Shown: piece by piece, positions 153 to 63,952 of the stretch
How positions within the stretch are numbered: the stretch's first letter is position 1
Layout of the letters: each line of letters begins with the position of its first letter
DNA from: Deuterostichococcus epilithicus
Lineage: Eukaryota > Chlorophyta > Trebouxiophyceae > Prasiolales > Stichococcaceae
Direction: 5' to 3'
DNA length: 64,000 bases
NCBI GenBank assembly: GCA_033439295.1
Contig: JAVTLE010000013.1
Coordinates: forward strand, 1,178,001 to 1,242,000
Position numbers and translations under genes: made by a program
Notes under the pieces: model-generated
What the model saw: the letters and a program-made list of their open reading frames with translations, nothing else
The model's database searches: none
Told to the model about the DNA's origin: nothing

Positions 153-3100
153 GGAGCAGGGCATGGAGGGCGTGCTCAGCTACTCCACCGACCTGTTCGA
201 CACAGCCACCATGCAGCGGATGGCGCAGCACCTCAGCAACCTGCTAGCGGCTGTGACGACGCAGTCGGCGGCCCGCCTCAGCAGCCTCAGCATGATGGGC
301 CCCGAGGAGGAGCACACCGTACTGCACGCCTTCAACGACACCGCCGGCCCGCCGCCCACGCTGTGCGTCCACCAGTTCTTTGAGCAGCAGGCCGCCGGTA
401 CGCCGGCAGCCGACTGCCTGGTCGACGGCGCCAGCGGCGGCAGCATGACCTATGCAGAGGTCAACGCTCGCGCCAACCAGCTGGCCCGGCACCTCATCGC
501 CGCCGGCGTGGCGGCGGAGGTCCCGGTGGCGATCATGATGGACAAGAGCTTCGAGGTGTACATCGCCCTGGTTGCGGTGCTGAAGGCGGGCGGCTGCTAT
601 GTGCCCATCGACCACACGGCACCGGCGCAGCGCGTGTGCAGCATCCTGCAGCAGGCCGGCACCCGCCTGCTGATTGCGCAGCCGGCTGTGCAGCTGCCGA
701 ACCGCGAGCAGCTGCCGTTTGGGATTGACATCCTGATGGCGGACGAGCAGTGGCGGCGGTTCAGCAGCCAGCCGGACGGCAGCCTGGAGCCGCGCAGCCG
801 CCCCGCCAACCTGTACACCATTATGTTCACCTCCGGCTCCACCGGCACGCCCAAAGTGAGTGCTGTGTCTGCGGATCTCCCTCTGAACAACTGCCCATGC
901 AGCATCAACGTTCGAGTGGCCATCGTGGATCAGCACACCCAGCATGCTTTGGGCACGACGGTGTCCATCTCGTGTGATGAGACCTCCTGGCCTGTCTTGT
1001 CACCGTGCTGTTGCCTGTACCTGCGCAGGGCATCCCCGTCGAGCACGCAGGCAAGCACTTGCAGCGCCTTCTCTTCAGTCCAAGCCTTTGGTCACTGGCA
1101 CATCCTCACATCGCAGCTGCTGGTCGACTCTCAAGCTGCGGCATGTGTCCGACATGTTGCAGCTTTTGCAAACCGCAACACGAGTTGTGTTTGTATCAAG
1201 AGCCTCTGCCACGAATGCTGTGCTGAGTCCGCAGGCGTCTCCAATGTCATCTCGTACGAGACCAGCGTGTTGCAGTCAGCCGGCATGCAGCGCGGCGATC
1301 GGGTGCTGCAGTGGATGGCGGTCAACTTCGACCTGTCGGTGCTGGACTTCTGGTGCCCGCTGGCCATGGGCTGCGCCGTGGTGGTCGCGCCGGCGGAGGA
1401 GATGAAGAATGTGGAGCGGGTTGCGGCGCTGGTGCAGCAGCACCAGGTCGCCTCCGTCAGCATTGTGCCATCCATGTGCCAGGTGCGGTCTGGGACAATA
1501 CAGCAGGTGCTGCATTCATTCAGAAGGATATTCGTCTCTCAGTCATCAGAGCCTACCATCTTTTCGCATGTGTCTTGTCACCCGAGGCTGGGCTGAGGCA
1601 CATGCGCTTGTGCCTGATGCAGGCGCTGCTGGAGGTGTGCCGTGACATTGGCCTGATGACCAGCCTGCGACATGTCAACTATGGTGGTGAGGCGGTGCGG
1701 CCTGCAGCGGTGGCCGCGATGCGGGTCGCGGCGCCAAACGCTGAGCTGCACGATGCGTAAGTCTCTCCAGCAGCTTCTGCTGCTGTCGCTTTGCCATTCG
1801 ACCTGGCCAGCTGTCGACAAGCTTTCAAAATTTCTGCGACAGAGCCTCCTGCCAGGATGTATATGAAGTTGATTTGATCGAGGCTGTGACAGCGTGCTTC
1901 ATGCTGACATCTTTGCTTTTGGCAACGCAGGTACGGTCCCACCGAGGCCAGCGTCATCACCACATCCTTCCGCTGCAATGACTACGGCGATGCCGTGTCG
2001 GTGCCCATCGGCAGGTGAACATGTACTTGCTCGGATGTTGTGCTGGTGCAGACAACGGGCACCGCTGATGACAGCTTGCTGCTCATGTCAGTCGTTGCTG
2101 CATGGGAGTTCTGCAAAGCACTGCCGAGCAGCAGTGCGGTGTCGATTGGTGGGCTTCTCACCCCCTGCAGGCCGTTCACCAACATGCGCCATTATGTGCT
2201 GGACTCCATCACCCTCGCACCTGTGCCCATCGGCGTCCCTGGCGAGCTTTTCCTCAGCGGCCCCGGCGTCGCGCGTGGCTACTTGGGGCGGCCGGATCTG
2301 ACGGCAGCAGCATTCCTGCCCAACCCCTTCCGGCTGCCCGGCGACGGCGACGCTTACGCCCGCATGTACCGCACCGGCGACAACGTCATGTGGCTGCCCA
2401 GCGGCATCAACAGGTGTTTGGCTGATACAGGGGAGACGTTCTGCTGTTCTCTTGCAAAACTAGGCTGCAGAGCCGTCAATTGCAGCTAACAACACTTGTG
2501 CGGTTGCAGCAGTACCTCGGGTTCCTCAGTTACCTGGCGTCAGTAAGCCTTCTGAGTTCCAAGAGAAAGCAGCCAGCAGGTTTTCACGGCTGAGCTTCTG
2601 CTGGGTTCAAGTCGAACTCTGAGCCTTACCTGCTCAGCCGCGGTGCCCGCTGTACTGCAGGTTCTTCGGCCGCAAGGACGGTCAGGTGCAGCTCCGCGGT
2701 TTCCGCGTGGAGCTGGGCGAGATTGAGGCGGCGCTGTCGTCGGCGCCGGGGGTACAGAGCGCCGCGGTGGTGCTGCAGGATGCCGACACCCCCAATGCAG
2801 CACTCATTGCCTACGTGTCCCCTGAGGACGCTGACCAGGAGGACGTGCTGGAGGCCTGCCGCGCCAAGCTGCCGCGCTACATGGTGCCGGCTGCGCTTAT
2901 GAGAATGGAGGCTCTACCGCGTCTCGTCAACGGAAAGGCGAGTGACAAATGTAGGGGTTAGCCTTGCCGCGCCACGAGTCCAGCTCCAAAGCTGCCTTCG
3001 CCAAGGCGGTCACCCTGGTCGAGAAGATGGTCCAGGCCGCCTGGCGTCCCAACCCCTGCCGAGACTTGCACTGCCCTGAACCTGGCTTCGCCAACCCAGC

Positions 3101-3684
3101 GGATCCTCTCGCCGTAGGTCGACCGCCGCAGCCTGCCACGCTTTGAGTACGGCGCCTCAGCAGCAGCATACATTGGGCCCCGCACCGCCACAGAGGTGGC
3201 CGTCCAGGCGGCCTGGCACGCAGTGCTGCAGCGTGGAGAGGAGGACCCTGTGTCCATCGACGCCAACTTCTTCGAGGTGTTTGCTTTGAGTCTCGTAGTA
3301 GCTCGTGCCTGGAGGGGTACATCACAAAATGAAATGCACAGCTCGCAACCTGCTGCACCCTCACCAGCAAGACCTCGTTTGCCAGATGCAGCTGCGTCGC
3401 TCACCTTCTGTCTGCCGCAATCAGATTTGCGGTTCACTCCCACTGCCGCGCAGCTCGGAGGCAACTCCCTCATGGCGGGAGGCGTCACATCTCGCGTGCG
3501 CTCGGCCCTGGGCTTGCGGCGCAGCATCCCAGGCGCCTGGCTGTTCTCGCACCAGACGATCCGCGCACTGGCGGCCAAGGTGGACGCTGAGAGCAGCCAG
3601 TCGGCGGGCCCAGTACTGCCGCTGCGGCAAGTGGCGCACTCTGCCGCCGAGGCCGACCGCCGCTTCCCGCTGTCCTTCCAGCAG
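153..3684 (+). CDS. NRPS module 1 (C-domain end, A, T)
   Basis: Exons: 153-855, 1029-1050, 1235-1482, 1623-1756, 1931-2014, 2171-2413, 2661-2937, 3118-3276, 3454-3684. The start holds only the end of a C domain ([11 protein letters not shown]). The A domain runs from about 340 to 2937: [21 protein letters not shown] (A3, 826-846), FDLSVLDFW (A4), YGPTEASV (A5), MYRTGDN (A7), [13 protein letters not shown] (A8) and VNGK (A10). The specificity code by GrsA alignment is D-L-L-S-V-Y-A-V-I-K; the substrate is not assigned. The T domain (3118 to about 3590) has LGGNSL with the carrier serine at 3466-3468, and is split by an intron between NFFE and LGG. Oddities: a 22-base microexon (1029-1050) lies between A3 and A4, followed by a GC donor at 1051; a second GC donor is at 2938. 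The A domain is closest to module 12, and the two share an intron just before YGPTE. Confidence 0.9.
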
Positions 3685-6600
3685 GTGGGCGCCCTTCTTA
3701 AGTGTTTCAGCAGTGCATTTGGAGCTGTGAGCTACATCTTAGACCGGAAAGCTTTCTCTGACATAGAGCACCTTCACCTATCGTGTGTTTGAACGAGGTT
3801 TCGAGTCTTGATTCAGGTGCCCTGGGATAGTGCCTGTCAACGCCTTCAGTTCTGACTGTGCCCTAACTTCACCACAGGAGCAATTCTTCCAGCTCTGGCA
3901 GCGCGAGCCGGAGAACACAGCGTATCACACGTCGTGGGGACTGCACCTGGTGGGCCCGCTGGTGCTGCCGACGCTGCAGGCCGCGCTCGACATGCTGGTG
4001 CACCGGCACGAAGTGCGAACCGCTCCTTAGCCCGAGCATCACGATGTACAATGTGCATGACGCCAGCGCACGAGTCCTCGACAATTTTTCTACCAGCTCG
4101 AGCGATGCTGGCTGCACACCAGAAGGGGGTTCAGGCTGAGCAACACGAAAGAGTGTCTTTCGGCCCAGAGGGCGCAGCACCTGCCTTTGGGTCGAGAGCT
4201 GGGAGGCACCTTTGATTGGCGCTGTCTTTGTAACCAACAGGTGCTGCGCAGCCAGTTCGTCGCCAGCGATGAAACCGGCCCCTGCACGCGCCTGCTGACG
4301 GGCAAAGCTGCCAGCGCACAGCTGGAGGTGGCGCAGCTGCTGGCCGGAGGCGCTGGCATCAGCTTCAGTGACGGCGTCGCCACCATTGCAGCAAACTCGC
4401 CCTTGCAGCGGCAGTGGGCGGAGTTTGCCAACGCGCCTTTCGACCTATTCACCAGCCGCCTCCTGCGCGCCAAGGTGCGTGACTCAGCCAAGACACATGT
4501 CCTTGACGAAGGCAGTGGCAGTGTGCTTCACTTATCTTTGCCTCCGGCATGCGCACACAACGCACTCCCTACGTGGGTGCCATCACACACTTGGAACTGC
4601 GAGCTGAAGTGACACTCAGAAGTTCGAGTATGTGCCTCGTTCTTGCTGCTCTTCAGATGCCTTGACATCAGTTTGCTCCCTGCCCCCCTGCAGGTATGGG
4701 AGCTGGCCCAGGAGGAGCACGTGCTGCTGTTTGTGATCCACCACACCATGACAGATGGCTGGTCCATCCGGCTGTTCCAGCGGGACCTGGCGACAGCCTA
4801 CGCCGCCGCGGCTGGCAGCGCCGAGCCCGCCTGGGCGCCGCTGCCGGTCGCATACAGCGACTACGCCGTCTGGCAGCGGCAGCAGCTGTCAGGGCCGGCG
4901 CTGGAGGCGCAGCTGGCCTGGTGGAAGGCCAATCTGGACGGCGCGCCGCCTCTGCTGGACCTGCCGACTGACCGGCAGCGCCCAGATGAGACGTCCTACC
5001 GCGGCGCGGAGGTGCCGATGTTCGTCGACGCCGCGACCGGCGGGCGGCTGCGGGCGCTGGCGGCGGCGCACAGGACGACGCCTTTTGTCGTCGTGTTGAC
5101 GGCACTGCAGGTGCCAGCACGTTCTGCCTGAGCCTCTCGGCGACTGAGGGTCGATCGACAGGCTGCCAATCAGACTTGTATTGTAAGGGTTCTAGGTGTA
5201 GCTGCCTATTGCTACCCTTGAGATGAGAGCGTCGCTGCTCAATGTCTGACCAACACATGCGTCTCCTTTGACAGGTGCTGCTGCAGCGCATTACCCGCCA
5301 GGACGAGGTCGTCATTGGGACGCCATACGCCAACCGCGAGGAGCCAGACGTGATGGAGATGGTCGGATGCTTCATGAACGTGGTGCCTGTGCGGCTTGCG
5401 GCGTCCGGAGGCACCACCTTCGGCCAGCTGGTGGACGCCGCCGCCCAGGCAGCATCAGCGGCGTTCGAGCACGGCGCTGCGCCCTTCGCCATGATCGTGG
5501 ATGCGCTCAGCATCGCTCGCACCTCCTCCCACACACCTGTGCACCAGGCACGTCCTGCATGACGATTGCTGTTCGTTCTGCTGTCCATTGCAGCCATGTT
5601 GTGCAGACTAGTACAGACTTGTACGCAGGTTTTGTCTTGTGTCTTTCGCAGGATGTTCCTCCTCGCCTCTAATCTCGTGGCACGACCCCGCAGGTGATGC
5701 TCACGGTGGACGCGGAGACCGAGTCAGCGGCCCGCCAGCAGGGCGACTGGGCCGATCTCACGGCGCAGACGGCGGTCACCGACCAGGCAGACGCGGCGAT
5801 GACAGACCTGGTCCTGTCGCTGCGCAGCAAGTGCGACCTCCAGCCTCCTCCTCCTCCATCCTTGTTAGCCTGTTGCTCCAAAATTGATGTCATCACTTAG
5901 GTGCTCCTGCCTGGGGTGGTGTATTGAGCTGTGGGCTCTAACGATTACCGAGTGTCCAGTCAAAACCGACGAAGCTGCAGATAAACAAACCCTCTGAACT
6001 GCGCTGTTGCTGTGCAGGGGAGACACGCTGTCCGGCGAGCTGCTATATTCCACGGACCTGTTCGATGCCTCCACCGCCGCCCGCCTGGTGTCCAGCCTGT
6101 GCACCCTGCTAGCAGCGGCGGCAGCAAACCCCGACGCGCCGCTGGCGCAGCTGCCGCTGGCAGGCCCCGCGGAGCGGCAGCTGGTGCTGGAGGACTTCAA
6201 CGCCACCGACGAGCCGTGGCCGGCCGACAAGTGCATCCACCAGCTGTTCGAGCGTCATGCGGCGCGCCGCCCCGAGGCCGCCTGCCTGGTCACGCCGGGC
6301 GGCAAGGCGCTGAGGTATGCCGCCGTCAACGCCGCAGCCAATCAGCTGGCGCGCTGGCTGGCCGCCGCGGGCGTGGAGCCCGGCGCCGCCATCGGCCTGC
6401 GCATGTGCAAGTGCCCGCAGCTGTACATCGCGCTGCTGGCGGTGCTCAAGGCCGGCGGCGTGTACGTGCCGCTGGACCCGAGCCTGCCGCGCGAGCGCGC
6501 CTCCTTCATCCTGCAGCAAGCGGGCGTCAAGCTGCTGCTGACGTCGGAGGCCAATGCGGCAGGCTCTCGGCAGCTGCCCGGTGTGCGGGTGGAAGTCGTC

Positions 6601-9600
6601 GACGCCGCCGGCAAGCTGGCGGCGGACCAGCCCAAGACCAATCTGTCGCTGGCCATCAAGCCTGCATCCTCGGCTTACATCATCTTCACGTCCGGTTCTA
6701 CCGGCCAGCCCAAGGTGCCGCCCCTTCTCAGGCCTGAGCAATCTTCTCGGGATCTGTGATCGTGTCCTCTCTGCAAGCGCGACCAGGGCGCTAGACCAGC
6801 CTGAGACATGGGGACAACGGTCTGCTGCATCTGACATGATGTGCCTGGCCTCCAGGGCGTGGAAATCGCCCACGCCGGCGTGGTCAACCTGCTGCACTTC
6901 TACAGCGTGGCCACCGCGCGGCTGCCGCCGGGCTCCATGTTCCTGCAGAGCATGGCGGCGCACTTTGACGGCTCCATCATGGACGTCTGGCTGCCGCTGT
7001 CGCTGGGCTGCGGCATCGTCATCCCGGCGTCCGACGACGTCAAGGACCCCGACCGCATGCGGCAGCTGATCACGCAGCACAAAGTGGTGTTCCTCATGAT
7101 CGTGCCATCGCAGCTGCAGGTGCGAAGCCTGCAGTCTGTCCCGCAGGTTGATGCTGCAAGTCTGAACACTGTAAAGATCCTCCTCGGCAGAATAGCGGCA
7201 TGGTATCCGCGCCACTAGGCTGTGCAAAATTCCCCATCCGTGTCTCCGAGATCATTCATCTACGAGTTTATCCGCTGCAGGTCATCATGGACACTTGTCA
7301 GGATGCGGCGCAGCTGTCCAGCCTGCGCAACCTGGCCATTGGGGCCGAGGCGCTGAACCCTGCGACGCTCGCGTTTGCGCAGCGCCTGATGCCGCAGGCC
7401 GCCCTGTACAACTGCTTCGGGCCGACAGAGGTGAGCTCAAATGTTCAATCGCACACAGCTGTGTCGGTTGCCTTGTCTTTGTGGTGAAACCACAGGCAGA
7501 TCTGCCACCGCCTGGACGATGCGAGATCCCGCGACCATGTCGGCACAACCTGTTGACCCTAACTCGGCCGGCCCCTGCACAGGCGACCGTCATGGTGTCC
7601 ACCTTCGCCTGCCGCTCGTTCAAGGCGGATACTGCGGTGCCCACCGGCTCGCCCATCAACAACGTGCGGCTGTACGTTGTGGAACCGGAGACGCTGCAGC
7701 CACAGCCCATTGGCGTGCCCGGCGAGCTGTGCGCCAGCGGCATCTGCTTGGCCAAGGGCTACGTCGGGCGCCCGGACCTCACCGCGGCGGCCTTCCTGCC
7801 CAACCCCTTCGTGGCGCCCAGCGACGGCGCTGCCTTCAGCCGCATGTACCGCACCGGCGACCTGGCCGCCTGGACAGAGGACGGCACTGTCAGGTGCATT
7901 TTTGAGTGGGCAACAGGCTAGTCTAGTTTTCAAAAGTATGTCCCGATGCCTGGCTATCGTCCTCAGCAAGAACCTGCAGAAGGTGTTGACGTCAGACCTG
8001 CTCCTCTGCTGCCTTGGGGCGAGACGGTATTTTCTCAGCTCCCATGTTCCCTGTGCCTACAGGTACTTGGGCCGCATTGACAGCCAGGTCAAGCTGCGTG
8101 GTTTCCGCCTGGAGCTGGGCGAGGTCGAGGCGGTGCTGGCAGCGGTCGACGGCGTGCAGGATGCCGTCGTGGTGCTGCAGGTGTGACGTGCTTGCGGTCT
8201 AGTGCCGACGATAATCACACTTCGGCTCATTTGCGCTTGCAACACGGCCAGCACCAGCAACAAGTAGGCTGTCAGAGAATGATGCAGTCCGGCTTCAAGA
8301 GAGCACGACACCCTCAGCGATCTGCCTCCTGCCGACCGCAGGACGCCGGCACGGCGACAGCGGCGCTCATCGCGCATGTCACGCCGGCCACCGCGGATGA
8401 GGGGGCGCTGCTGGCGGCGGCGCGTGCCAAGCTGCCCTACTACATGGTGCCGGCAGCTGTCAGGCTCTTGGACGAGCTTCCGCGCCTCTCCAGCGGCAAG
8501 GTGCAATGGAAGCCTTCAAATCAAGATCTTGCCAGGGGGAAAGTGGCAAATCACACAAGAATCAAGAACTCTGCCGGTTTTGTTTGATTGCAGTCTTCTG
8601 AAACCCAATTGTGTCAATATGATCTGTCTGGCTGCCAAGCCTCACCTGCTGGAGCTGTCAAGTGCGCACTGCTTGATACAGCTGCTGATGTGGTGCTGTG
8701 GCTGCTGCTCAGGTGGCGCGGGGCCGCCTGCAGCGAGTGGATGCGGCAGCCGCCTCGACGGAGCAGCACGTCGCGCCGCGCAATGTGACGGAGGAGGCGG
8801 TGCATGCCGCCTGGTGCGACGTGCTGCAACAGGAGGAGCTCAGCGTGACAGCGAACTTCTTCGAGGTGTGGCTCTGCCCGTGTCCGCCGCCTGTGCCGGT
8901 GCCTGCCTCTATGCCCTGCTCGCGTATGAGATGCTGTCCCTCCTGTACTGTCGCAGTGTATTCAATCAGACCTGCCGCTCACGCTGACCTGGGACCTCGT
9001 ATCTGATTGCTACATGAATGAGACATCTCACACCAAGCCGCTCCTCCGTGGCGCAGCTGGGCGGCACCTCGCTGCAAGCCGGCGGCGTCATGTCCCGGCT
9101 GCGCACACTCTTCGACAGCAGCCGCGACATTCCCATTGCATGGCTGTTCCGGCACCCCACCATTGCGGAGCTCGCAGAGCGCATTGCCCGCGCGGACTCA
9201 GCTCCGCAGGATGACGGCCCGCGGCTGCCGCCGCTACCTACAGCCGGCGGCAGCGCGGCCAGCGAGACTGAGTCTCACCCCGTCTCCTTTCAGCAGGTAA
9301 TCAAATTGCTCTAGAGTGCTGCCATGCTGATATTCCGAACCCTCTTGCAGCGAAATCAATTCTCGGTTCTCTATGCTGCATGTCCTGTATTGGCGGGGCG
9401 GATGCTGACAAACTCTGTCATCTACCATCTACCTTCTGCAGGAGCAGTTCATCCAGCTGTGGCGTCAGAACCCACAGTCCAGTGCCTACAATTCAGGGTT
9501 TGGCCTGTATCTGAGCCCCCTAAATATGGACGCGCTGCAAGCGGCTGCGAGCCTCGTCCTGAGTCGTCAGCAGGTGTGCACACCTTCAGCAGCGCCGCTG

Positions 9601-54600: not shown

Positions 54601-57600
54601 CATGGGCTGCTTCGTGAACACCCTGGCGCTGCGGGGCGACCTGTCGGGCGACCCCAGCTTCGGAGAGCTGCTGCGGCGCTGCAAGGCGGCCACGACGCGC
54701 GCCTTCGAGCACGGCGCGGTGCCATTTGCCCGGGTGGTGGAGACGGCGGTAACCACGCGCAGCGCTGCGTTCACGCCCATCTACCAGGTGAGAATTGCCT
54801 TGCGTTGCGCCAACTCGCGGGTACATCAGCGCAGGCCGGCCCAAACCGCAGGGGAGTTTGCTGCCTGCGGATAGGATTGTATCCACAGAGATGGCGTTTC
54901 AGGAAGTGCGGCTTCCTTGGATGCTGCAAGTAGCGGTATGTGAAGTGTGAACATTGCAGTCACAAGAGCCATCTCTTCCGTGTGATAAGGTGCATTTCTC
55001 CGCCTGACCACAGGTCATGCTGCTGGTGAATGCCGAGGACGGTGGCGCGGCCAGCGCCGCCAACTCAGCAGACACGCTGCAGCTGAACGACATGATCAGC
55101 TACCGCAACTCCACGGCGCAGACCGACCTCGTCCTGTCCCTCGCCATCAGGTGCGAGTCGCTGAGAAACACTGAGCCTTATGCCTTGCGCATCCTATGCA
55201 GGGTGTGCATAGGTCATAGTTACACGCAGTGACAGTCACTGATGGGACCTCTGATTCTCTGGTGCAGCTGTGCAGATGTGGTTTCCAACATGATCACTGT
55301 GCTTCAGAGGCTTGGGTGCATGAAATTTTCATCTCTCTTCCTGCAGGGACGAGGGCATCGAGGGCGTGCTGAACTACGCCACTGACCTGTTCGATGCCGC
55401 CACCGTGGAGCGCATGGCGGCGCACCTGAGCACGCTGCTGGCGGCTGTCGTGGCCGCGCCCGACGCCCCGCTATGGAAGTTGGACCTGATGACGCCCGCG
55501 GAGCGGCAGCTGACGCTGCAGATTTTCAACGACACGGAGGAGCCGTACCCCTCCGACAAGGCAGTGCACCAGCTGTTCGAGCGGGTGGCGGCGCGCATGC
55601 CTGCCTCGCCATGTATGGTCACCACTGGCGGCGAGCGTCTGACCTACGCCGCCGTCAATGCCGCCGCCAACAAGCTGGCGCACTGGCTGATCGGCAAGGG
55701 TGTCACTGCGGACGTGCCCGTGGCGGTCTCGCTGCACAAGTGCCCACAGCTGTACATCTCGCTGCTGGCGGTGCTGAAGGCCGGCGGCGCCTATGTGCCG
55801 CTGGACCCCGGCCTGCCGGCGGAGCGCGCCGCCTTCATCCTGCGGCAGACGGGCGCGCGGCTGCTGCTCACATCTGCAGCCGGCGAGTTGGCGTCGCAGC
55901 TGGAGACCGAAGCTGTCATCGTGAACCAGGGCTGGCAGCAGTTTGCGGACCAGCCGGGAGCCAACCCGGCGGCGCGCTCTGGACCTGCAGACCTTGCACA
56001 CATCACCTTCACCAGCGGCTCGACGGGCGTTCCCAAGGTACAACACCTGCGAATGATTCCCCTCGGTCTTCCTTAGCCTCCCGTGTAGGATGTCCACATC
56101 GGCTAGGGCACAGGGCTTAACGTTGCACGTTGCACTTGCACAACTACGGAAGCAGGGGGCTGGCGGCTGACACAAGTCTCGACGAGCCGTTTGCCTTCCC
56201 TCTGCTCCACAGGGCGTCGAAGTCATGCACGGCGGCCTCGTTAACGTGCTGCACTACTACGGCGCGGCGCTGGCGCTGGAGCCGGGCGCCATGACCCTTG
56301 CCAACCTCAACTTCTACTTCGATGCCAGCGCGCTGGACATCTGGCTGCCGCTCAGCCGCGGCTGCAGCATGGTCATCATGCCCAGCGAGGAGGGGAAGGA
56401 CCCCGCCCGCCTGTGCGAGGTCATCTCCGAGTACGGCATCGTTGGCTTCGCCTCCGTGCCGTCGCAGATGCAGGTGTGCAAGCGCACCCGTCCGCAGACC
56501 ACACACCTGCAGCAGCTGGCTCGCCTGGGGATCAGCGCATGAGGCCAACTTGTTTGCCGCCCCCGAAAGCGCGTGCTCCCCAGGCCTGTCACAGCGCGGG
56601 GCCTGCGCCCCTTGCCAGGATGCGAGCCTCTGAGCTTGGTGCCCACTCTCCACCAGGGCGCATCAGGCCACGCTGGCGCTCCGGTGCTGAACATCTGCGG
56701 CTGAATCCTGAATGACATGCCTTTTCCGCCTGCAGGTCCTGCTGGACACAGCGCGCGGGTCGCAGCTGTCCAGCATGAGGGCCATGACCACCGGCGGCGA
56801 GGTCCTCAACCCTACGACGCTGGCCCAAGCGCGGCGCATTATGCCGGAGGCCCGCCTGTTCAATGTGTATGGCCCCACTGAGGCGACGGTGCTCGTCAGC
56901 GCCTTCCCCTTCACGCGCTACAGCGGCAGCGGCAGCGTGCCCATTGGCAGGTGAGACACGGATGCAGCAGGCGCAACACATCCTGGCAGCAAGCTCACAG
57001 AGGTGCATCCTGCTGCCTGACTGTCCTGCAGGGTTGATAATGGAGCACAGTAGCGGAGGATGCGTGTGTCTCATGATGCACGGCTCTGCTGGGAAATTCC
57101 TCAGAGAGCGGCGCCGTCATTGCCGAGCACACCATTGCCGGCTGGCCGCAGGCCGATCCAGAATGTGCGCATGTACGTGCTGGAGCCGCGGTCGCTGCAG
57201 CCGCAGCCGGTCGGCCTGCCGGGCGAGCTGTTCATCAGCGGCGTGTGCCTGGCGCGCGGCTACTCTGGCAGCCCAGAGATGACGGCAGAAAAGTTCCTGC
57301 CCAACCCCTTCCGACAGCCGACAGACAGCGCCGACTACAGCCGCATGTACCGCACCGGCGACATCGTGGCCTGGCTGCCCGATGGCAACATCAGGTGCGG
57401 CGCTGACCTGCTGCAGCACAGCGTCTGGAGGGCGGCGGCCGAAGGACCACGTGTATTGATCCCGGGCACAAGGACAGATGTGTGCGTTGCAGAGCCTGGT
57501 GTCTGGCGCAGGTGGAGCTCGTGGGGCTTCACCTGTCGGATGTCGGAATCCGACATAATGACACCACCTCATGTCGTCGGCCTCATGTTGCGCAGGTTCG

Positions 57601-60600
57601 TGGGCCGCGCAGACGGCCAGGTCAAGCTGCGCGGCTTCCGCCTGGAGCTGGGCGAGATCGAGGCGGTGCTGGCGGCCGTCGACGGCGTCAACGAGGCGGT
57701 TGTTGAGGTGCAGGACCGCAACAGCCCGGCGGCCATGCTGGTGGCCTACGTCACACCGGAGGCGGCGGACGAGGCGGCGCTGCTGGCGGCGACGCACGCC
57801 AAGCTGCCGCACTACATGGTGCCCTCGGCGTTCGTCAAGCTGGCGGAGCTGCCGCTGCTTCCCAGCGGCAAGGTGGCGCGCCGGCTGCTGCCACGCAGCG
57901 AGGCAGCCGCCGGCTCGGCAACGTACGTCGCGCCGCGCAATCCGCTGGAGGAGGCGGTGCACGCCGCCTGGCAGGAGACACTGCACATCAGCGAGCCCAT
58001 CGGCGTCTATGCCAACTTCTTCGAGCTGGGCGGCAACTCGCTGCAGGCCGGCGCGCTGTGCTCCCGCCTGCGCGATGCGCTGGGCTCGGAGCAGGCCATT
58101 CCCATCGTCTGGGTGCTGGAGTGCCAGACCATCGAGGCGCTCGCTGCGCGCCTGGCAGACACAGGCGCCGTGGAGGCGCTTTCAGTGCTGCCGCCGCTGC
58201 GGGCCACCGTCAGCCTGCAGAACGAGCACACCCGCCCGGACGTGCCCCTGTCCTTCGAGCAGGTCTGTTTCGCCTTGTGCTTCCGATGGTCCAAGATGAC
58301 ACATGCCCACACTGGTGTCTCGGCGCAGCAGCCACGTGCGAATGAGCTCCCTTGCCATGCCACATTGCCATTGCCATCCACACATGCATGCATGCCTGCA
58401 GTCCACGTAAGTTCACGCTGCTGACACCTGTGCTCTGGACTCGACGTTGCAGGAGCAGTTCTTCCAGCTCTGGGAGCTGGCAATGGGGTCAAGCGTCTAC
58501 AACTCCGGCTTCAGCGCCTTTTTGGACGGCGACCTGGACCTCAGAGTGCTGCAGTCCGCCGTCAGGATGCTGTTCCAGCGGCAACAGGTCAGCATCTTCT
58601 GGCTCTCATCTGCTTGTGTTCGGCTGCGCGCCCGCATTGGATGCACTACCATTCGCGAGGGTCTCATGCAGGCAATGCGGCGGTTTCTGCAGAGCAGCAC
58701 GCCGCTGAGCCGCCACACCGAGCAGGACGAGGGCAGGAGGGTTTGCGGGCAACACAGCCGAGGTGCCAGCGTTCTGCAGCGCGCCTGCAAGCCCTGGCCT
58801 GCGTTGCACAGGTGCTGCGGGCGCGCTTCTCCAAGGGCGGCGCCGGCATGCCCGGCCCCCAGCAGCGCACCGTGCCGCTGGAGGGCGCGGATGCCTACCT
58901 GGGCGTCGTCCGCCTCGACAGCAGTGCCAGCGAGCAGATCGACACCTCGCAGGGTGCCTGCTACATTGCGCCGGGTGCGAACAGAGCAGCCGGCCGACTT
59001 TGTCTTGCAGTCTTGCCCGATGCTGCAGCCTTGCCCTGATGTCGCTGCCTTGCCCGGATGTTGCAGTCTCGCCCGAAAGGGGGCCGGGGATCGGGCAGCA
59101 TGCAGTTGGAATGTGCTTGAGGTACTGATCACAGCTGGTGCCCCCCTGCAGGCTCGCTGCTGCATCAGCAGGTGGCGGAGTTCATGGGCAAGCCCTTCAA
59201 CCTGCTGTCAGAGCCGCTCGCCCGCATGGAGGTGAGGCTCTGCGCCTCCCGAATTCATGCAGTGATCAGCCTCGCTGTTTGTTGGCCAGGGTTTCGATGC
59301 AAACTTAGGCAGATGCCTGCCGTGCTGTGCTGCACCACTGCTGGTGCAGGGCATGGTCAGGAGCCCTGAATGGCCTCGGCTCGATGAAGTATCACATGGG
59401 ACTTGACAGCCGCCCATGCTGATTGGCCGCACAGGTGTGGGTGGTGGACCAGCGGCGCCACATCCTGCTGGCCAGCATGCACCACACCATCACCGACGGC
59501 TGGTCGGCGGCGCTGCTGCAGCGGGAGCTGGCGGTTGCCTTTGCGGCGGCGCTGGCCGGCGCCGAGCCGGTCTGGGCGCCGCTGCCGGTCCAGGTCGTGG
59601 ACTACGCCGCCTGGCAGCGGCAGCACGTCGCCGGCGCTGTGCTCAACGGGCACCTGGAGTGGTGGCAGCAGAACCTGGCCGGCGCGCCGCCGCTGCTGGA
59701 GCTGCCCTGGGACCGCCGGCGGCCGGATGTTGCCGGCCACGCCGGCGCCGCCGTGCCAGTGGAGGTGTCGGCGGAGGTGGCGGCCCGGTTGCGGGAGCTG
59801 GCCGCCGCGGAGCACACCACCCTGTTCAACATCCTGCTGGCAGCCATCCAGGTGTGCCCCATTCGCATTGTTCCTGCCCAGTCCAACACACGTACCAGCG
59901 TTCTCGGATCTCATCCTGAAGGAGCTCCTATCAGAAATTGCCTTGCGGCCTGCTGGTAGCAGCATTCTACATATGCACAGTTCTGCGCATGGAGCACACC
60001 ATCCATGTATGCCTATCCTCGTCCGGCCTTGCTAAATTTGAGAAACTTTCCACCCGGGCTGCAGGTGCTGCTGGCACGGTACTCAAACCAGAACGATGTC
60101 GTGGTGGGCACGCCCTATGCCAACCGCAGCCAGACGGAGCTGCAGCAGCTGGCGGGCTGCTTTGTCAACACCGTGGCGCTGCGAACCGTCATCGAGGGCG
60201 ACCCCAGCTTCCGGAAGCTGCTGAAGGGCGTCAGCAAGGCCACCATGCAGGCATTCTCTCACGCCGACGCGCCGTTCGCCAAGGTCGTGGCCGCGGCCAA
60301 ACAGCCGCGATCAGCTTCGTTCACTCCCATCTACCAGGCAAGATCTCGAGTTGAATGCCAGATCAAGACTGTTTGTGACTACAGTGCTTGCAGCTTGGTG
60401 GTGATCCTGATGTATGCATCATGTGCCATACACCAGCCATGTAAGCTTGCTCAGAGCCACCAGCACATATTTGCCAGCCGAGCTGCTCAAACTAACTTTC
60501 CAGCAGGCGCCCAGGCTTCTAAACAACGCTGTACCAGTTTTCGATATTTTTTATGTGCTTACCATGCTGAGTGCTGGGCTTTGCGTTGCGCCAGGTGCTG

Positions 60601-63600
60601 CTGTTCCTGGAAGGCGAGTCTGACTTTGGGGAAGCGGCTGCATCCGACGCTGCATACGATGGCCCGGCCTGGCGCCAGCTGAGCATGGGCGAGCCCGTTG
60701 TGACCACGCCGACCGACCTGGACTTCCGGCTGCGCACCAGCAAGTGCGATGCTTCGCCTGACCCTCCCTCCTGGCCGCATTCTTGGCTAATTGTGCCTGA
60801 CTCATTGTACCAGCTGCAACCTGAGAATGAGACTACTTGAGAATGATGCCCTGTCTTTCGGATGCTGCTGTCAAGCGGGCCGCCAGGTCCGCTGATGCGC
60901 CAGATGATCTCAGCCAGATGCAGGCCTGATGTCAAGCAAGGTTGTCATTGCAAATTTCCGACACGCTTCCGACAGGGCATCGGGTGTCGTGGGGCACCTG
61001 GTCATCGCCACGGACCTGTTCGATCTGGGCACGGGTCGCCGCATGGCGCGACACTTTGCCAACCTGCTGGCCGCCGTGGCGGCGCGCCCCGCCTGCCAGC
61101 TCAGCGCCATCAGCTTGATGGGGCCTGCGGAGGAGCGCACCGTGCTGCGTACCTTCAACGACACTGCCGGGCCGCCGCTGCTGACGTGCGTGCACCAGTT
61201 CTTCGAGCGGCAGGCGGCTGCGACGCCGGATGCCGCCTGCCTCATCGGCGCTGCCGCCGGCGAGGTGCTGACATACCACGAGGTCAACGCGCGCGCCAAC
61301 CAGCTGGCACGCCACCTCGCCGCAAACAGCGGCGTCGCAGCGGAGGTGCCGGTGGCGGTCATGATGGACAAGAGCTTCGAGGTGTACATTGCCCTTATCG
61401 CCATCCTCAAGGCCGGCGGCTGCTATGTGCCGATCGACCCTACCATGCCAGCCGCGCGGCTCTGCTCCGTCGTCGAACAGGCCGGCGCCAAGCTGCTGAT
61501 CGCGCAGCCGGCGGTCGAGAGCATCCGGCAGCAGCTGCCGGGCGGGCTGGAGGTGCTGGTCGCCGATCGCGGCTGGCAACGCTTCAGCAACCGGGCGGCC
61601 GGAAACATGGAGGGCTCGCGCCGGGGCCGCGTCCGGGGGCTGGTCTACCTCATGTTCACCAGCGGGTCGACCGGCACCCCGAAGGGCATCGCAGTGGAGC
61701 ACGCCGGTGCACTCTCAGCAGCCATGCATGTGGCGCTGCTGAAAGCCTGGCGCGTGCATGCTGTTCCATGTTGTCGCGAGAAGATTTGCGATCAAGTCCT
61801 TTCATAAAGAACAGCTCTCTTATTGAGTTGATCATTCAAGTCATCCATTCGCTTGCCAAAGCACCAACAGCAGTGGGTCGCATGTTGTTGACGAGTTGTT
61901 TACCTGGCTGATGCATGTCATGCTGAACCATGTGGCTTCGACCCGATCTGCGCAGGCGTTTCCAACGTCATCGCCTACGAGACCAGCGTGTTGCGGGCGG
62001 CGGGCGTGCAGCCAAGCGACCGCTTCCTGCAGTGGATGGCGGTCAACTTCGACCTGTCGGTGCTGGACTTCTGGTGCCCGCTGGCCATGGGCTGCGCCGT
62101 GGTGGTCGCGCCGGCGGAGGAGATGAAGAGCGTCGAGCGGGTAGCAGCGCTGGTGCAGCAGCACGACATCGCCTCTGTCAGCATTGTGCCGTCCATGTGC
62201 CAGGTGTGCTGTTGTACACACCCCAGGCCCAGGTCGTCCACGGGATCACGAAGCGAGCACTTCCAGTGCAGTCTCTGGGTTCCAGCGTCCCTCAGTGCCT
62301 CGACAGGCCAGCTTGTGTTGACAGTGTTGGCAGCCTCCCCTTTCGTGCGTGATCGTGTCCTTTCCTCTTCCCTTCCTTTCCCTTTACATCATAATTCTTC
62401 ACACGCAGGCGCTGCTGGACGCCTGCGGCGGGCGCGGCCTGCTGACCAGCCTGAAGCACGTCAACTTCGGTGGCGAGGCGGTGCGGCCGGCGGCGGTGGC
62501 CGCCATGGTGGCGGCGGCGCCGAATGCTGAGCTGCACGACGCGTGCGCTTCCCAGCCGTTCTTTCTGCTTCTGTCTGTGGTTCTCACAGGCTTGCTGTTC
62601 AACACCTGCAGCATCTGCAGCATGCTCAACCTGACTGATCAGTCTTAAGTCCCGGGAGCCTGGCCAGCAGCTGGGCTGAACTGATGGATCCTGGTGTCCA
62701 GGTATGGCCCCACGGAGGCCAGCGTCATCACCACCTCCTTCCTGTGCAACGACTACGGCAACGCCGTGTCGGTGCCCATCGGCAGGTACGCACATGCAGG
62801 ATCTCGGCCAGCGTGCGCCGCATACGCTGGAAGCTTCTGTACCATGGTGCTGGTCATCACCCACATGCGCCACTTGATGAATCTGCCCCAGGATGATCGC
62901 ACCTGCCCTGCTCATGCTTCTCTGACTTTCGACATCCTTGATCACTGCAGGCCGTTCACCAACATGCGCCACTATGTGCTGGACTCCATCACCCTCGCAC
63001 CTGTGCCGATCGGCGTCCCCGGCGAGCTGTTCATCAGCGGCCCCGGTGTCGCGCGCGGCTACATCGGCCGCCCAGAGCTCACCGCGGCGGCCTTCCTGCC
63101 CAACCCATTCCGGCTGCCTGGCGACAGCGACTTCTACGCCCGCATGTACCGCACCGGCGACAACGTCATGTGGCAGCCCAGCGGCATCCAGCGGTGGGTC
63201 CCCATTCTGGCGGCATGCTGCTGAGGCGGTCACCTGCCTGGCGCAAACTGCATTGCCGATCCAGGTGGACGACCTCGTCCTCCTCATGCATACGATTGAG
63301 TCCATAAGTTGCTTGATGCAAGCTTTCGGTATGTTCCACAGGTTCTTCGGCCGTAAGGACGGTCAGGTGCAGCTGCGTGGCTTCCGCGTGGAGCTGGGCG
63401 AGATCGAGGCAATCCTGTCAGCGGCACCAGGCGTGCAGAGCGCCGCGGTCGTGCTGCAAGATGCCGACACTCCCAGCGCCGCGCTGATCGCCTACGTGTC
63501 CCCTGAGGACGCTGACCAGGAGGCCGTACTGGAGGCCTGCCGTGCCAAGCTGCCGCGCTACATGGTCCCGGCTGCGATTTCAATCATGGAGGCGCTACCG

Positions 63601-63952
63601 CGTCTTGGCAACGGAAAAGTGAGTGGAAAAGATGTTCTGCTGTGGATGCTGTGGGGCTTCATTGAATTTTGCAGTGCGACAGGTCGACCGAAACAGCCTG
63701 GCGCACCAAGACAGAGTGTCCTCTCGCACCTACTGGCACTTTGCCCGAAACCCGGCCGAGCCTTGCACTGCCTGTCCTGGACAGAGCTCCAACACCCCAG
63801 CGGATCCTCTCGATGCAGGTCGACCGCCGCAGCCTGCCACGCTTCGAGTTCAGCTCTTCGGCTACCTTCGTGGACGCTTCTTCACCGGTCGAGAAAGTGT
63901 TGCAGTCCGCCTGGCGGCAGGTGCTGGTGCTGCCTGAGGAGCAGCCACTCGG
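153..63952 (+). CDS. Giant multimodular non-ribosomal peptide synthetase, internal part (at least 12 modules, 143 exons)
   Basis: One reading frame runs through 143 exons with no stop and would give about 12,650 residues; both gene ends lie outside the window. The order is (C-end)-A-T, then ten C-A-T modules, then C-A-T(start). Complete modules are 1,077 to 1,102 residues long, normal for a C-A-T module. Exon joins were chosen by GT/GC donor, AG acceptor, frame, and identity of the joined protein to sister modules; exon lengths sum to multiples of three in every complete module, which supports the model. No gap between modules is long enough for an intergenic region, and the intron between modules always splits the first C-domain motif, so modules cannot be separate genes. 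The enzyme should act in the cytosol as an assembly line; loading and release domains must lie outside. A phosphopantetheinyl transferase would be needed elsewhere in the genome. Whether all exons enter one mRNA is unproven. Confidence 0.9.
1029..1050 (+). other. 22-base microexon in the module 1 A domain
   Basis: It encodes GIPVEHA plus the first base of the next codon. Module 12 has the matching residues GIAVEHA fused without an intron to TGTPK, which shows they belong in the protein. Skipping the microexon would join a phase-0 end (855) to a phase-1 start (1235) and break the frame. It is followed by a GC donor (gcaagc). Confidence 0.8.
3878..9296 (+). CDS. NRPS module 2 (C-A-T)
   Basis: Exons: 3878-4012, 4241-4474, 4694-5110, 5275-5547, 5694-5830, 6018-6714, 6856-7119, 7281-7430, 7583-7893, 8063-8180, 8342-8500, 8713-8865, 9057-9296 (1,096 residues). 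C domain, about 3878-6190: EQFFQLWQ, catalytic HHTMTDG (4739-4759), [18 protein letters not shown] domain, about 6197-8500: [10 protein letters not shown] (6685-6705), [37 protein letters not shown]; code D-G-M-M-L-I-C-V-M-K, one position (I for L) from modules 5, 6, 9 and 10. T domain, 8713 to about 9200: LGGTSL, serine at 9069-9071. Like modules 5 and 9, it lacks the intron found elsewhere in the first half of the C domain. It has two introns seen in no other module: after GPTE (7431-7582) and after VVVLQ (8181-8341). The C domain ends in an exon followed by a GC donor at 5548. Confidence 0.9.
9442..15414 (+). CDS. NRPS module 3 (C-A-T)
   Basis: Exons: 9442-9573, 9706-9868, 10003-10082, 10258-10671, 10848-11120, 11354-11478, 11735-11957, 12152-12721, 12903-13073, 13517-13734, 13890-14132, 14317-14593, 14778-14936, 15157-15414 (1,102 residues). 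C domain, about 9442-11905: [16 protein letters not shown] (10303-10323), VVGTAYANR. It is the most divergent C domain: YxDYAxW reads as YAAYAW (Asp absent, one residue shorter), and the DRxRP stretch is altered near two N bases (10500, 10537). The Leu codon at 10498-10500 is unaffected by its N; the codon at 10537 is undetermined. A domain, about 11911-14593: [10 protein letters not shown] (12593-12613), [28 protein letters not shown]; code D-G-L-M-A-L-A-V-A-K. T domain, 14778 to about 15300: IGGTSM, serine at 15169-15171. Unique introns lie after CVHQ (11958-12151) and before WMALFFDGS (12722-12902). Confidence 0.87.
13074..13516 (+). other. Longest intron of the window (443 bases), module 3 A domain
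   Basis: This is the only non-coding stretch over 300 bases. It opens with gtgagt and closes with gtacag, at the position after VPSMFQ where every module has an intron. It is clearly AT-richer than the exons. It carries an exact tandem duplication of cggtacagattg at about 13120-13143. I see no coding exon, RNA gene or recognisable transposon in it. Its length, more than twice the usual here, may reflect a decayed insertion, but nothing proves that. Confidence 0.7.
15638..20991 (+). CDS. NRPS module 4 (C-A-T)
   Basis: Exons: 15638-15772, 15901-16054, 16233-16312, 16522-16938, 17141-17413, 17646-17794, 17950-18685, 18853-19074, 19279-19496, 19632-19837, 20011-20106, 20269-20486, 20593-20991 (1,101 residues). 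C domain, about 15638-18120: [16 protein letters not shown] (16567-16587), [10 protein letters not shown] domain, about 18124-20486: [10 protein letters not shown] (18605-18625), [40 protein letters not shown]; code D-L-L-T-A-L-V-V-F-K, shared with modules 7 and 8. The A8 motif reads LAE where LGE is usual, and an intron (20107-20268) cuts through it. T domain, 20593 to about 20880: LGGNSL, serine at 20755-20757, in one exon with no NFFQ/LGG intron, as in module 8. GC donor at 20487. The post-C linker has a Gly/Asp-rich stretch (about 17660-17705) that modules 7 and 8 lack. Confidence 0.91.
21046..21073 (+). repeat. Short imperfect GACT repeat in the module 4/5 intron
   Basis: Runs of ctgactgactgac with interruptions. 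The partner intron (42405-42639) has a longer version at about 42451-42503. It is a simple repeat expanded differently in the two block copies. Confidence 0.6.
21211..26110 (+). CDS. NRPS module 5 (C-A-T)
   Basis: Exons: 21211-21345, 21527-21769, 21942-22358, 22538-22810, 23038-23174, 23372-24059, 24247-24510, 24670-25130, 25321-25750, 25883-26110 (1,092 residues). With ten exons it is one of the least interrupted modules. C domain, about 21211-23545: [16 protein letters not shown] (21987-22007), [28 protein letters not shown] domain, about 23548-25605: [10 protein letters not shown] (24030-24050), [40 protein letters not shown]; code D-G-M-M-L-L-C-V-M-K. The T domain follows in the same exon: NFFS, intron, MGGNSL with serine at 25895-25897. 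The C domain matches module 9 best, including the lack of the first-half intron. GC donors lie at 22359 and 26111. The exon encoding PIGRPIHN is continuous here, where modules 1, 3, 4, 7, 8, 11 and 12 have an intron. Confidence 0.91.
24060..24246 (+). repeat. Intron with two diverged units of about 50 bases (module 5)
   Basis: The intron before A4 holds two tandem diverged units, each with a run like ggcagacaatc and a ggtgacagca or ggacggca stretch. The equivalent intron of module 9 (45370-45556) is nearly identical. Modules 6 (29285-29469) and 10 (50565-50749) carry a related pair of units with their own changes (cggcagacaactt, ggcacacaact). Confidence 0.5.
26307..31399 (+). CDS. NRPS module 6 (C-A-T)
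   Basis: Exons: 26307-26441, 26608-26773, 26925-27004, 27216-27632, 27781-28053, 28273-28397, 28597-29284, 29470-29733, 29895-30355, 30545-30974, 31166-31399 (1,091 residues). C domain, about 26307-28770: [16 protein letters not shown] (27261-27281) followed by Phe instead of the usual Trp, [15 protein letters not shown] domain, about 28773-30833: [10 protein letters not shown] (29255-29275), [19 protein letters not shown]; code D-G-M-M-L-L-C-V-M-K, same as modules 5, 9 and 10. T domain, about 30834-31310: MGGNSL, serine at 31178-31180. The C domain keeps the extra first-half intron (26774-26924) that module 5 lacks, so adjacent modules with the same A type carry different C lineages. The acceptor at 28595-28596 (gcgatcaaag) has no pyrimidine tract and is the weakest join in this module. 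GC donors lie at 28054 and 31400. Confidence 0.9.
31554..37135 (+). CDS. NRPS module 7 (C-A-T), with one lost and one extra intron
   Basis: Exons: 31554-31688, 31838-32000, 32205-32284, 32466-32624, 32799-33329, 33538-33671, 33809-34547, 34712-34933, 35122-35339, 35475-35680, 35926-36021, 36174-36391, 36535-36687, 36899-37135 (1,097 residues). C domain, about 31554-33980: [16 protein letters not shown] (32511-32531), [18 protein letters not shown] domain, about 33985-36391: [10 protein letters not shown] (34467-34487), [25 protein letters not shown]; code D-L-L-T-A-L-V-V-F-K. T domain, 36535 to about 37040: LGGNSL, serine at 36911-36913, split by an intron that modules 4 and 8 lack. The intron between the two C-domain halves, present in all ten other modules where this site is visible, is missing: exon 32799-33329 (531) equals 258 + 273. 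A new intron (32625-32798) precedes ITDYAAW. GC donors: 32001, 33330, 36392, 37136, the most of any module. Confidence 0.9.
33330..33537 (+). other. Intron with a protein-like open stretch (possible captured terminal exon)
   Basis: The intron separates HNPVYQ from VLLTLDD in module 7 and uses a GC donor (gcgaga) and a ccttag acceptor. Inside it, from about 33350 to a TGA at 33515-33517, an open frame of 55 codons encodes a plausible soluble C-terminal segment (ending in [11 protein letters not shown]). The equivalent introns of modules 4 and 8 show nothing like it. It may be chance, or a fragment of another gene's last exon captured by the intron. If spliced in, it would end the synthetase early. 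I do not recognise the family. Confidence 0.35.
33875..35720 (+). repeat. A-domain tract of module 7, near-identical to modules 4 and 8
   Basis: Exons and introns here match module 8 (about 39500-41210) almost base for base. The intron lengths 164, 188 and 135 are the same in both. The first part (about 33875-33985) instead matches module 4 (about 18012-18125), where module 8 differs. The copy is therefore a mosaic. Confidence 0.75.
37257..42404 (+). CDS. NRPS module 8 (C-A-T)
   Basis: Exons: 37257-37391, 37525-37678, 37815-37894, 38018-38434, 38542-38814, 39009-39142, 39301-40039, 40204-40425, 40614-40831, 40967-41172, 41352-41447, 41612-41829, 42006-42404 (1,097 residues). C domain, about 37257-39475: [16 protein letters not shown] (38063-38083), [17 protein letters not shown]. 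An N at 38326 is the third base of an Ala codon and is harmless. A domain, about 39478-41829: [10 protein letters not shown] (39959-39979), [31 protein letters not shown]; code D-L-L-T-A-L-V-V-F-K. T domain, 42006 to about 42290: LGGNSL, serine at 42168-42170, uninterrupted as in module 4. Exon structure is identical to module 4. From about 34000/39500 through 35680/41172 it is nearly identical to module 7, introns included (164, 188 and 135 bases in both). GC donor at 41830. Confidence 0.91.
42451..42503 (+). repeat. Imperfect GACT repeat in the module 8/9 intron
   Basis: Several ctgactga units separated by short spacers. It is homologous to the shorter run at 21046-21073. Confidence 0.6.
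42640..47491 (+). CDS. NRPS module 9 (C-A-T)
   Basis: Exons: 42640-42774, 42978-43178, 43314-43730, 43874-44146, 44390-44526, 44682-45369, 45557-45820, 45982-46442, 46633-47062, 47267-47491 (1,077 residues, the shortest; exon 2 is 201 bases against 243 in module 5). C domain, about 42640-44855: [16 protein letters not shown] (43359-43379), [17 protein letters not shown] where Ser replaces the usual Asn. A domain, about 44858-46915: [10 protein letters not shown] (45340-45360), [19 protein letters not shown]; code D-G-M-M-L-L-C-V-M-K. T domain, about 46916-47400: MGGNSL, serine at 47279-47281. Exon count, missing introns and the intron before A4 (45370-45556, same 187-base length and near-identical to 24060-24246) pair it with module 5. 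All introns use GT donors. It follows module 8 as module 5 follows module 4. Confidence 0.91.
47081..47136 (+). repeat. Three tandem units of about 18 bases in the T-domain intron of module 9
   Basis: Units resemble ctgcatctgatcrtgga, each diverged by a few bases. They lie just inside the intron between NFFS and MGGNSL. No coding value. Confidence 0.5.
47627..52586 (+). CDS. NRPS module 10 (C-A-T)
   Basis: Exons: 47627-47761, 47954-48113, 48301-48380, 48546-48953, 49125-49397, 49606-49733, 49877-50564, 50750-51013, 51175-51635, 51823-52252, 52353-52586 (1,087 residues). C domain, about 47627-50050: [16 protein letters not shown] (48591-48611), [17 protein letters not shown]; exon 48546-48953 is three codons shorter than its sisters. 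A domain, about 50053-52105: [10 protein letters not shown] (50535-50555), [25 protein letters not shown]; code D-G-M-M-L-L-C-V-M-K. T domain, about 52106-52500: NFFA then MGGNSL, serine at 52365-52367. Exon structure equals module 6. The intron before A4 (50565-50749) has the same 185-base length as module 6's (29285-29469) and is near-identical to it. GC donor at 52587. Confidence 0.91.
52715..58262 (+). CDS. NRPS module 11 (C-A-T)
   Basis: Exons: 52715-52849, 53030-53183, 53336-53415, 53554-53712, 53981-54238, 54515-54787, 55014-55150, 55347-56037, 56213-56473, 56736-56950, 57152-57394, 57596-58262 (1,091 residues). C domain, about 52715-55520: [16 protein letters not shown] (53599-53619), LVDHAAWQ where His replaces Tyr, VIGTPYANR. 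It has an extra intron (53713-53980) at the same codon boundary as module 7. A domain, about 55523-57860: [10 protein letters not shown] (56008-56028), [41 protein letters not shown]; unique code D-A-L-A-M-T-V-V-L-K. T domain, about 57861-58170: LGGNSL, serine at 58038-58040. The last exon (667 bases) carries A8, A10 and the whole T domain without interruption, the most intron-poor end of any module. All donors are GT. Confidence 0.91.
58453..63952 (+). CDS. NRPS module 12 (C-A-T start; cut by the window edge)
   Basis: Exons: 58453-58587, 58812-58974, 59152-59231, 59435-59851, 60065-60337, 60595-60743, 60976-61706, 61956-62203, 62409-62542, 62702-62785, 62951-63193, 63342-63618, 63819-63952. 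C domain, about 58453-61150: [16 protein letters not shown] (59480-59500), [18 protein letters not shown] domain, about 61153-63618: [10 protein letters not shown] (61655-61675), [41 protein letters not shown]; code D-L-L-S-V-F-A-V-I-K, differing from module 1 only at position 301 (Phe for Tyr). The T domain begins at 63819 ([11 protein letters not shown]) and the exon seems to stop at 63952 with gtgaga, before the NFFE and serine motifs; an intron at that point is seen in no other module, so this last join is less certain. GC donor at 60338. The A domain runs straight from TGTPK into GIAVEHA, with no microexon. Confidence 0.87.
59011..59076 (+). repeat. Minisatellite of about 21-base units in a module 12 intron
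   Basis: About three imperfect copies of ttgcccgatgctgcagcc lie in the intron 58975-59151. Internal ctgcag and cag motifs resemble the acceptors used in this gene. They could act as decoy acceptors, but none would keep the frame and protein homology. Confidence 0.5.

Follow-up and report, generated by a model that had tools for sequence, protein, structure and literature searches.

Fungal peptaibol synthetases are very long single-gene eukaryotic NRPSs with 18 to 20 modules and long hydrophobic peptides as products; they are intron-poor and have a PKS-type start. Kolossin-type NRPSs are bacterial and intron-free. The linear gramicidin synthetase genes are also without introns, and several Lgr modules contain epimerases. 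The largest known NRPS, according to a review, is of the kolossin type and has 15 modules, 46 domains, and a mass of 1.8 MDa (PMC6262359). The original prediction for the DNA described here, that very large NRPSs are known in bacteria and fungi, is right.

The trans-AT type I PKS of green algae (C. reinhardtii PKS1 and its homologues) is encoded by a single giant gene with 10 to 11 modules and occurs in many chlorophytes (PMC7073580). Algal PKSs are described as having grown by module duplication (excerpts of PMC4661987). NRPSs are described as rare in algae in the available sections of two surveys (PMC4661987, PMC7073580). In 2015, NRPSs were reported for 7 of 32 algae, the largest being a 490 kDa, 10-domain protein of Bigelowiella, and Chlorella variabilis and Coccomyxa were credited with one C domain each (excerpts of PMC4661987). 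A 2020 survey of 22 chlorophytes describes, in its part on green algae, one PKS megasynthase, labeled NRPS-like by the software, and no other NRPS (PMC7073580). In 2024, a survey covering 212 algal genomes counted 12 clustered NRPS candidates that are long (at least 10 domains), every one of them an NRPS-PKS hybrid. The same survey gives 85 domains over 124 kb for the hybrid SymGor_s2_6, lists multi-module NRPSs in Mesostigma and in a Haematococcus assembly, and states that LCL-type C domains dominate in algal NRPSs (PMC10794256). NRPS or NRPS-like clusters, of unstated size in the portion available, are present in most of the Trebouxia strains studied (PMC11523091).

The window analyzed here is one continuous stretch of DNA, 64 kb in length. 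It contains, with a probability of roughly 85%, the middle of one nuclear gene that encodes a multimodular, non-iterative NRPS, with internally duplicated modules, copied A stretches, and an ordered product of L residues, and that belongs most likely to a Chlorella-like green alga. The coordinates of its features are given in Table 1. No larger pure algal NRPS was found in the passages cited here from the open-licence literature, and the gene, as read from its sequence, falls outside the descriptions of algal NRPSs given there. The kind of enzyme is known, and its place and gene architecture are unusual; what is new is the probable host group and the architecture, not the chemistry.

Like a kolossin-type NRPS, the predicted enzyme is a single polypeptide, and its module number is comparable. 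It differs in being eukaryotic, as judged by its introns, and in being incomplete at both ends; the kolossin product is a D-/L-pentadecapeptide according to a cited title, whereas the present product is predicted to be all-L. Its predicted great length and single eukaryotic gene are shared with the fungal peptaibol synthetases. The order of C, A, and PCP domains is the same as in bacterial NRPSs of the LgrA type. The green algal trans-AT PKS has PKS modules behind one A domain, whereas only C, A, and PCP domains are present here in the 3 of 12 modules scanned.

Table 1. Position of the NRPS gene, its modules, junction exons, and copied tracts in the window.
Feature	Position	Strand	Basis and remarks
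Internal part of one NRPS gene	153..63952	+	Splice model and curation; 143 exons, 142 introns, ~1.35 MDa, both ends open
Module 1 (cut): last ~55 residues of C, A1, PCP1	154..3666	+	Splice model, Pfam
Module 2: C2-A2-PCP2	3667..9278	+	Splice model, Pfam
Module 3: C3-A3-PCP3	9279..15396	+	Splice model
Module 4: C4-A4-PCP4	15397..20973	+	Splice model, Pfam
Module 5: C5-A5-PCP5	20974..26092	+	Splice model
Module 6: C6-A6-PCP6	26093..31381	+	Splice model
Module 7: C7-A7-PCP7	31382..37117	+	Splice model
Module 8: C8-A8-PCP8	37118..42386	+	Splice model
Module 9: C9-A9-PCP9	42387..47473	+	Splice model
Module 10: C10-A10-PCP10	47474..52568	+	Splice model
Module 11: C11-A11-PCP11	52569..58244	+	Splice model, Pfam
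Module 12 (cut): C12-A12 and PCP12 start, ahead of its Ser motif	58245..63952	+	Splice model, Pfam
Junction exons 1-6	3454-3684, 9057-9296, 15157-15414, 20593-20991, 25883-26110, 31166-31399	+	Splice model
Junction exons 7-11	36899-37135, 42006-42404, 47267-47491, 52353-52586, 57596-58262	+	Splice model
A cassette, module 5	23369..25755	+	Self-BLAST, exon and intron identity
A cassettes, modules 6, 9, 10	28595-30979, 44679-47067, 49875-52257	+	Self-BLAST
A cassette, module 4	18003..20495	+	Self-BLAST, exon and intron identity
A cassettes, modules 7, 8	33806-35852, 39298-41838	+	Self-BLAST
Second tract: A4 end, PCP4, C5 start	20564..21357	+	88.8% to 41977-42786 (A8 end, PCP8, C9 start)

The gene model was built with a semi-Markov splice model (codon use, donor and acceptor weights), followed by between-module homology and then by hand curation. 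The raw model has 146 exons. Three short exons (3006-3029, 56595-56683, and 58693-58740) were removed, and five exons whose raw ends ran into introns were trimmed, because the paralogous modules have an intron at those places; one of the five was shifted a further 3 nt. Two other models were discarded. The first, built without homology, predicted 159 exons, including some of zero length, and missed one A1 exon. The second was misled by introns common to near-identical modules and took some of them as coding.

The curated model contains 12,653 codons without an in-frame stop. A single frame of 143 exons and about 12,650 residues had been predicted, and the independent model reproduces it. The mass of the visible part, calculated from the 12,654-residue model one edit before the final one, is 1353 kDa. 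Bases 1-152 of the window, which precede an acceptor site, are treated as intron; a donor site stands ahead of the final 48 bases. By this anatomy, the gene is cut at both window ends and the enzyme is predicted to be larger than 1.35 MDa, as was expected from the start: the gene runs off both ends.

At each of the 11 PCP-to-C junctions, a single exon spans the stretch from the carrier Ser to where the next C domain begins (SFQQ or a similar sequence). These intact junctions, together with the maximum intron length of 443 bp, make a gene boundary between modules within 153-63952 very unlikely on the sequence, and the claim that there is no gene break holds. The arrangement seen in many bacterial clusters, where several neighboring NRPS genes each have their own promoter and stop, would find a partial parallel in the green algal PKS megasynthase, which is divided over polypeptides in some species (PMC7073580), and a genomic model alone is no proof of one transcript. 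Such an arrangement is nevertheless highly improbable against 12,653 codons without a stop, unbroken exons at every junction, and introns of 443 bp or less. The preferred reading is a single gene that is probably spliced into one mRNA.

The 142 introns consist of 127 GT-AG and 15 GC-AG introns. Their lengths, taken one edit before the final model (one donor has since moved 3 nt), have a mean of 182, a median of 179.5, and a range of 100-443 bp. The introns with GC donors start at positions 1051, 2938, 5548, 20487, 22359, 26111, 28054, 31400, 32001, 33330, 36392, 37136, 41830, 52587, and 60338. Their consensus is otherwise strong, with CAG or AAG ahead of the GC in 14 of the 15, and several are found at homologous places in different modules. 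Module 1 contains a microexon of 22 nt (1029-1050), and both introns that border it occur singly in other modules (PK|G; HA|GVSN). An extra intron past PLPVQ is common to modules 7 and 11 (32625-32798 and 53713-53980). The (A/G)[LVI]Q intron is missing from module 7 and is present in the other 10 of the 11 complete C domains. These differences are intron gains or losses between modules.

Twelve A domains are present in the curated protein, together with 11 complete C domains and 11 complete PCPs. A twelfth C domain is represented by its end and a twelfth PCP by its start, for a total of 36 domains with the cut ones counted. The A3 (FTSGSTG), A5 (GPTE), and A7 (Y[RK]TGD) motifs and the A10 Lys are each found 12 times, once in every A domain, which bears out the twelve A domains first counted. 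The count of eleven C domains is correct for complete copies and needs a small addition: from position 153 the window also contains the C-terminal ~55 residues of another C domain (Pfam score of 26.0 bits, below the cut-off of 30.6) and the start of a twelfth PCP. The C3 motif HHxxxDG is present in all 11 complete C domains in the form HHxxTDG. The phosphopantetheine-serine motif GG[NT]S[LM] is present in all 11 complete PCPs, the twelfth PCP being cut by the window end. In the raw six-frame translation, five of these motifs give 55 matches on the + strand, distributed over all three frames, and none on the - strand; each single + frame has 328-372 stops.

Whole modules M2, M4, and M11, of the 12, were scanned with Pfam. 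All three contain Condensation (PF00668), AMP-binding (PF00501), AMP-binding_C (PF13193), and PP-binding (PF00550), and all three match the amino-acid adenylation model TIGR01733 (M2, 405.5 bits against a cut-off of 317.4). Only C, A, and PCP families were found in these three modules, with no ketosynthase or other PKS-type domain. Nine of ten single-exon pieces gave the matching domain in Pfam, and one (3118-3276) did not. The order C-A-PCP is repeated along the one predicted chain. The ten modules that are whole at both ends have 1077-1102 residues each, which leaves no room for an epimerase, methyltransferase, thioesterase, or other extra domain. No epimerase, methyltransferase, or release domain was found within the window.

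Three isolated N bases are present at positions 10500, 10537, and 38326. All are exonic, two of them within one exon, and they may be allelic or unresolved consensus positions. These bases, along with near-identical tracts of 2.0-2.7 kb that are open to mis-joining, are what would be expected if the locus were an assembly chimaera of repeated modules or a decaying or silent relic. A relic is hard to reconcile with the absence of stops and with the intact state of every catalytic motif searched for, and the repeated copies differ by 4-14% at the DNA level and have their own flanking introns, and therefore represent distinct loci. A relic or chimaera is considered highly improbable. On its sequence the gene has intact catalytic motifs throughout, and the enzyme is presumably active.

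The predicted assembly line would operate in the usual order. In each module, the A domain would activate one amino acid as an adenylate and load it onto the phosphopantetheinylated PCP, and the C domain would condense it with the upstream chain. The visible part would thus extend a growing chain by 12 residues in order, with initiation upstream and release downstream of the window and a product presumably colinear with the modules. Ten residues of each A domain, at what are probably the classic pocket positions, were read by eye. They are DLLINGAVIK in A1 and A12, DGMIAGCVMK in A2, A5, A6, A9, and A10, DGLMNGAVAK in A3, DLLTNGVVFK in A4, A7, and A8, and DALSTGVVLK in A11. Judged by these pocket residues, the enzyme probably uses some five building blocks, arranged as a-b-c-d-b-b-d-d-b-b-e-a. 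All pockets retain the Asp and Lys that would be expected if the substrates are alpha-amino acids. They are otherwise without a charged residue, which suggests that the A-domain substrates are neutral or hydrophobic. The dual C/E motif HH[ILVMA]x4GD was not found in the window; with no epimerase domain either, all product residues would be expected to be L. The product might, as a guess, be a membrane-active peptide or one related to the cell wall.

The relationship among modules was examined with trees that included only A hits of at least 430 and C hits of at least 380 residues. The 12 A domains form one clade (support 100/100) relative to 28 bacterial A domains from 14 loci, and the 11 C domains form one clade (100/100) relative to 20 bacterial C domains from 10 of the 14 loci. 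The bacterial sample is small, with near-copies and long branches, and the trees are without fungal or other algal NRPS rows. The best identity between window domains and the sampled bacterial domains is 35-44%. Relative to the sampled bacteria only, the single A clade and single C clade indicate that the modules share a common origin by duplication inside the gene. Within the C tree, C4 pairs with C8 (98/97), C5 with C9 (100/99), and C6 with C10 (82/49, weak), and C7 stands beside C4/C8. These pairs suggest that a three-module block may have been duplicated once.

The best relative of known structure for the three-module profile is LgrA, the linear gramicidin synthetase, at up to 990 bits, and the fungal PsoA reaches 383. 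A scan of a contig collection yielded 7 relatives, all of them bacterial, with 31-40% identity; algal contigs were absent from its result. Two scans of viral contigs gave no relative; one of them had no pattern match and the other 167, none of which was confirmed. A phage search with one cassette returned a single 63-base match at 81%. A plasmid search with module 11 returned 2718 records, with the best place in each below 60% identity, and one with an A fragment of module 4 gave 1 of 1828 records at 60-80%.

The A domains can be far more alike than the C domains of the same modules. A4, A7, and A8 are mutually 97% identical, with 66-68% for their C domains, and A5, A6, A9, and A10 are mutually 92-97% identical, with 53-73% for their C domains. 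In a self-BLAST restricted to matches of at least 300 bases and 85%, the A regions are covered by DNA tracts of 2.0-2.7 kb with 86-96% identity, introns included. The cassettes of modules 5, 6, and 9 are 93-94% identical to one another, and that of module 10 is 86-91% identical to those; modules 4, 7, and 8 share 91-96%. Both sets of values include the introns.

Introns were compared segment by segment for 7 of the 9 within-group pairs (6/10 and 9/10 were left out). Those within the tracts are 63-100% identical, with 25 of 27 at 75% or above, compared with 47-60% for shuffled controls. Those flanking the tracts range from 1 point below to 11 points above their own shuffled controls. At fourfold sites, the 9 pairs taken together are 71-100% identical within the A core (alignment columns 540-900) and 25-83% identical within the C domain (columns 0-420), and this contrast argues that selection at the protein level is not the cause of the likeness between A domains. 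On this evidence, stretches with whole A domains have been copied between modules, and gene conversion or unequal exchange centred on the A domains is probably the best account of the tracts. The second tract shows that the junctions of modules 4/5 and 8/9 were copied as well. The gene would have grown by duplicating its own modules, with whole-A stretches copied between modules afterwards.

The borders of the tracts vary. The tract of modules 5, 6, and 9 begins at the intron ahead of the exon with the C end and the C-A linker, and ends at the intron ahead of the carrier-serine exon. Near-identity in module 10 starts about 100 residues later than in these three. Modules 4, 7, and 8 have a soft left border, and the 4/8 pair continues in a second tract (88.8%) that passes through the PCP and reaches the beginning of the following C domain. 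One idea tried and not kept was that every copied tract ends exactly at a splice junction. It is true on both sides, within ~13 nt, in modules 5, 6, and 9, and is weakened by module 10, by modules 4/7/8, and by the second 4/8 tract.

A domains or their cores are also the recombining unit in bacterial NRPS evolution, as stated in the accessible parts of two studies (PMC8097286, PMC7486941). The first of these finds that bacteria tend to retain their native C-A linker and A subdomain (PMC8097286), and the second that exchange of the linker plus the A domain has been found permissive by engineers (PMC7486941). Bacterial A-domain substitution diversifies products, whereas copies within this one gene have been made alike. 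Bacterial exchange also tends to leave the native linker and A subdomain in place, whereas the tract of modules 5/6/9 includes both, from intron to intron.

The spliceosomal-type introns rule out a bacterial host. GC content is 62-66% over the window (4-kb steps), 68.5% in exons, 56.3% in introns, and 87% at third codon positions (GC3), and the Leu codons CTG and CTC occur in a ratio of 1107:195 in the curated model. Mean intron length, in the excerpts available, is 179 bp for Auxenochlorella, 206 bp for Chlorella vulgaris, and 272 bp for Chlamydomonas (PMC12636532), and codon use in C. vulgaris is said to be like that of Chlamydomonas (PMC6972661). Intron number and size, CTG-rich codons, and GC content are compatible with Chlorella-like green algae and are not exclusive to them. 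No tRNA gene or Rfam family was found in the 64-kb window, and no marker gene for the taxon.

The same giant NRPS could belong to another GC-rich, intron-bearing eukaryote, such as a haptophyte, pelagophyte, or dinoflagellate. Members of all three groups, among them one pelagophyte, are reported to carry NRPS or NRPS-PKS genes (PMC7073580, PMC10366177, PMC10794256). The frequent GC-AG introns (15 of 142) could also point in this direction. The dominance of CTG in codon use and an intron size near that of Auxenochlorella and Chlorella speak against it. Haptophytes use CTC more. A host of this kind is considered unlikely, at perhaps one chance in a handful, and a green alga is the likely host on the circumstantial evidence of composition, codon use, and intron size. 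The original claim of a giant NRPS in a green alga is partly supported: a continuous, intron-dense gene with at least 12 modules is upheld, and the alga has indirect support from exon GC, CTG:CTC ratio, and introns.

These observations allow a wider proposal, tentative and somewhat short of even odds. A green alga would have an NRPS gene of more than 64 kb for a long, repetitive, all-L peptide made from about five building blocks. Introns would act as natural crossover points, and A cassettes, composed of the C-A linker, A core, and A subdomain, would be exchanged and kept alike by gene conversion. Specificity would then evolve as a set while the C domains drift. If true, a pure NRPS of megadalton size in what is probably a green alga would imply that a eukaryotic alga makes long peptides of an unknown class. 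The copied A cassettes with their conserved internal introns would be a natural record of tolerated domain borders. NRPS engineers probe such borders by trial, and this same gene may offer them exact A and C pairs to test.
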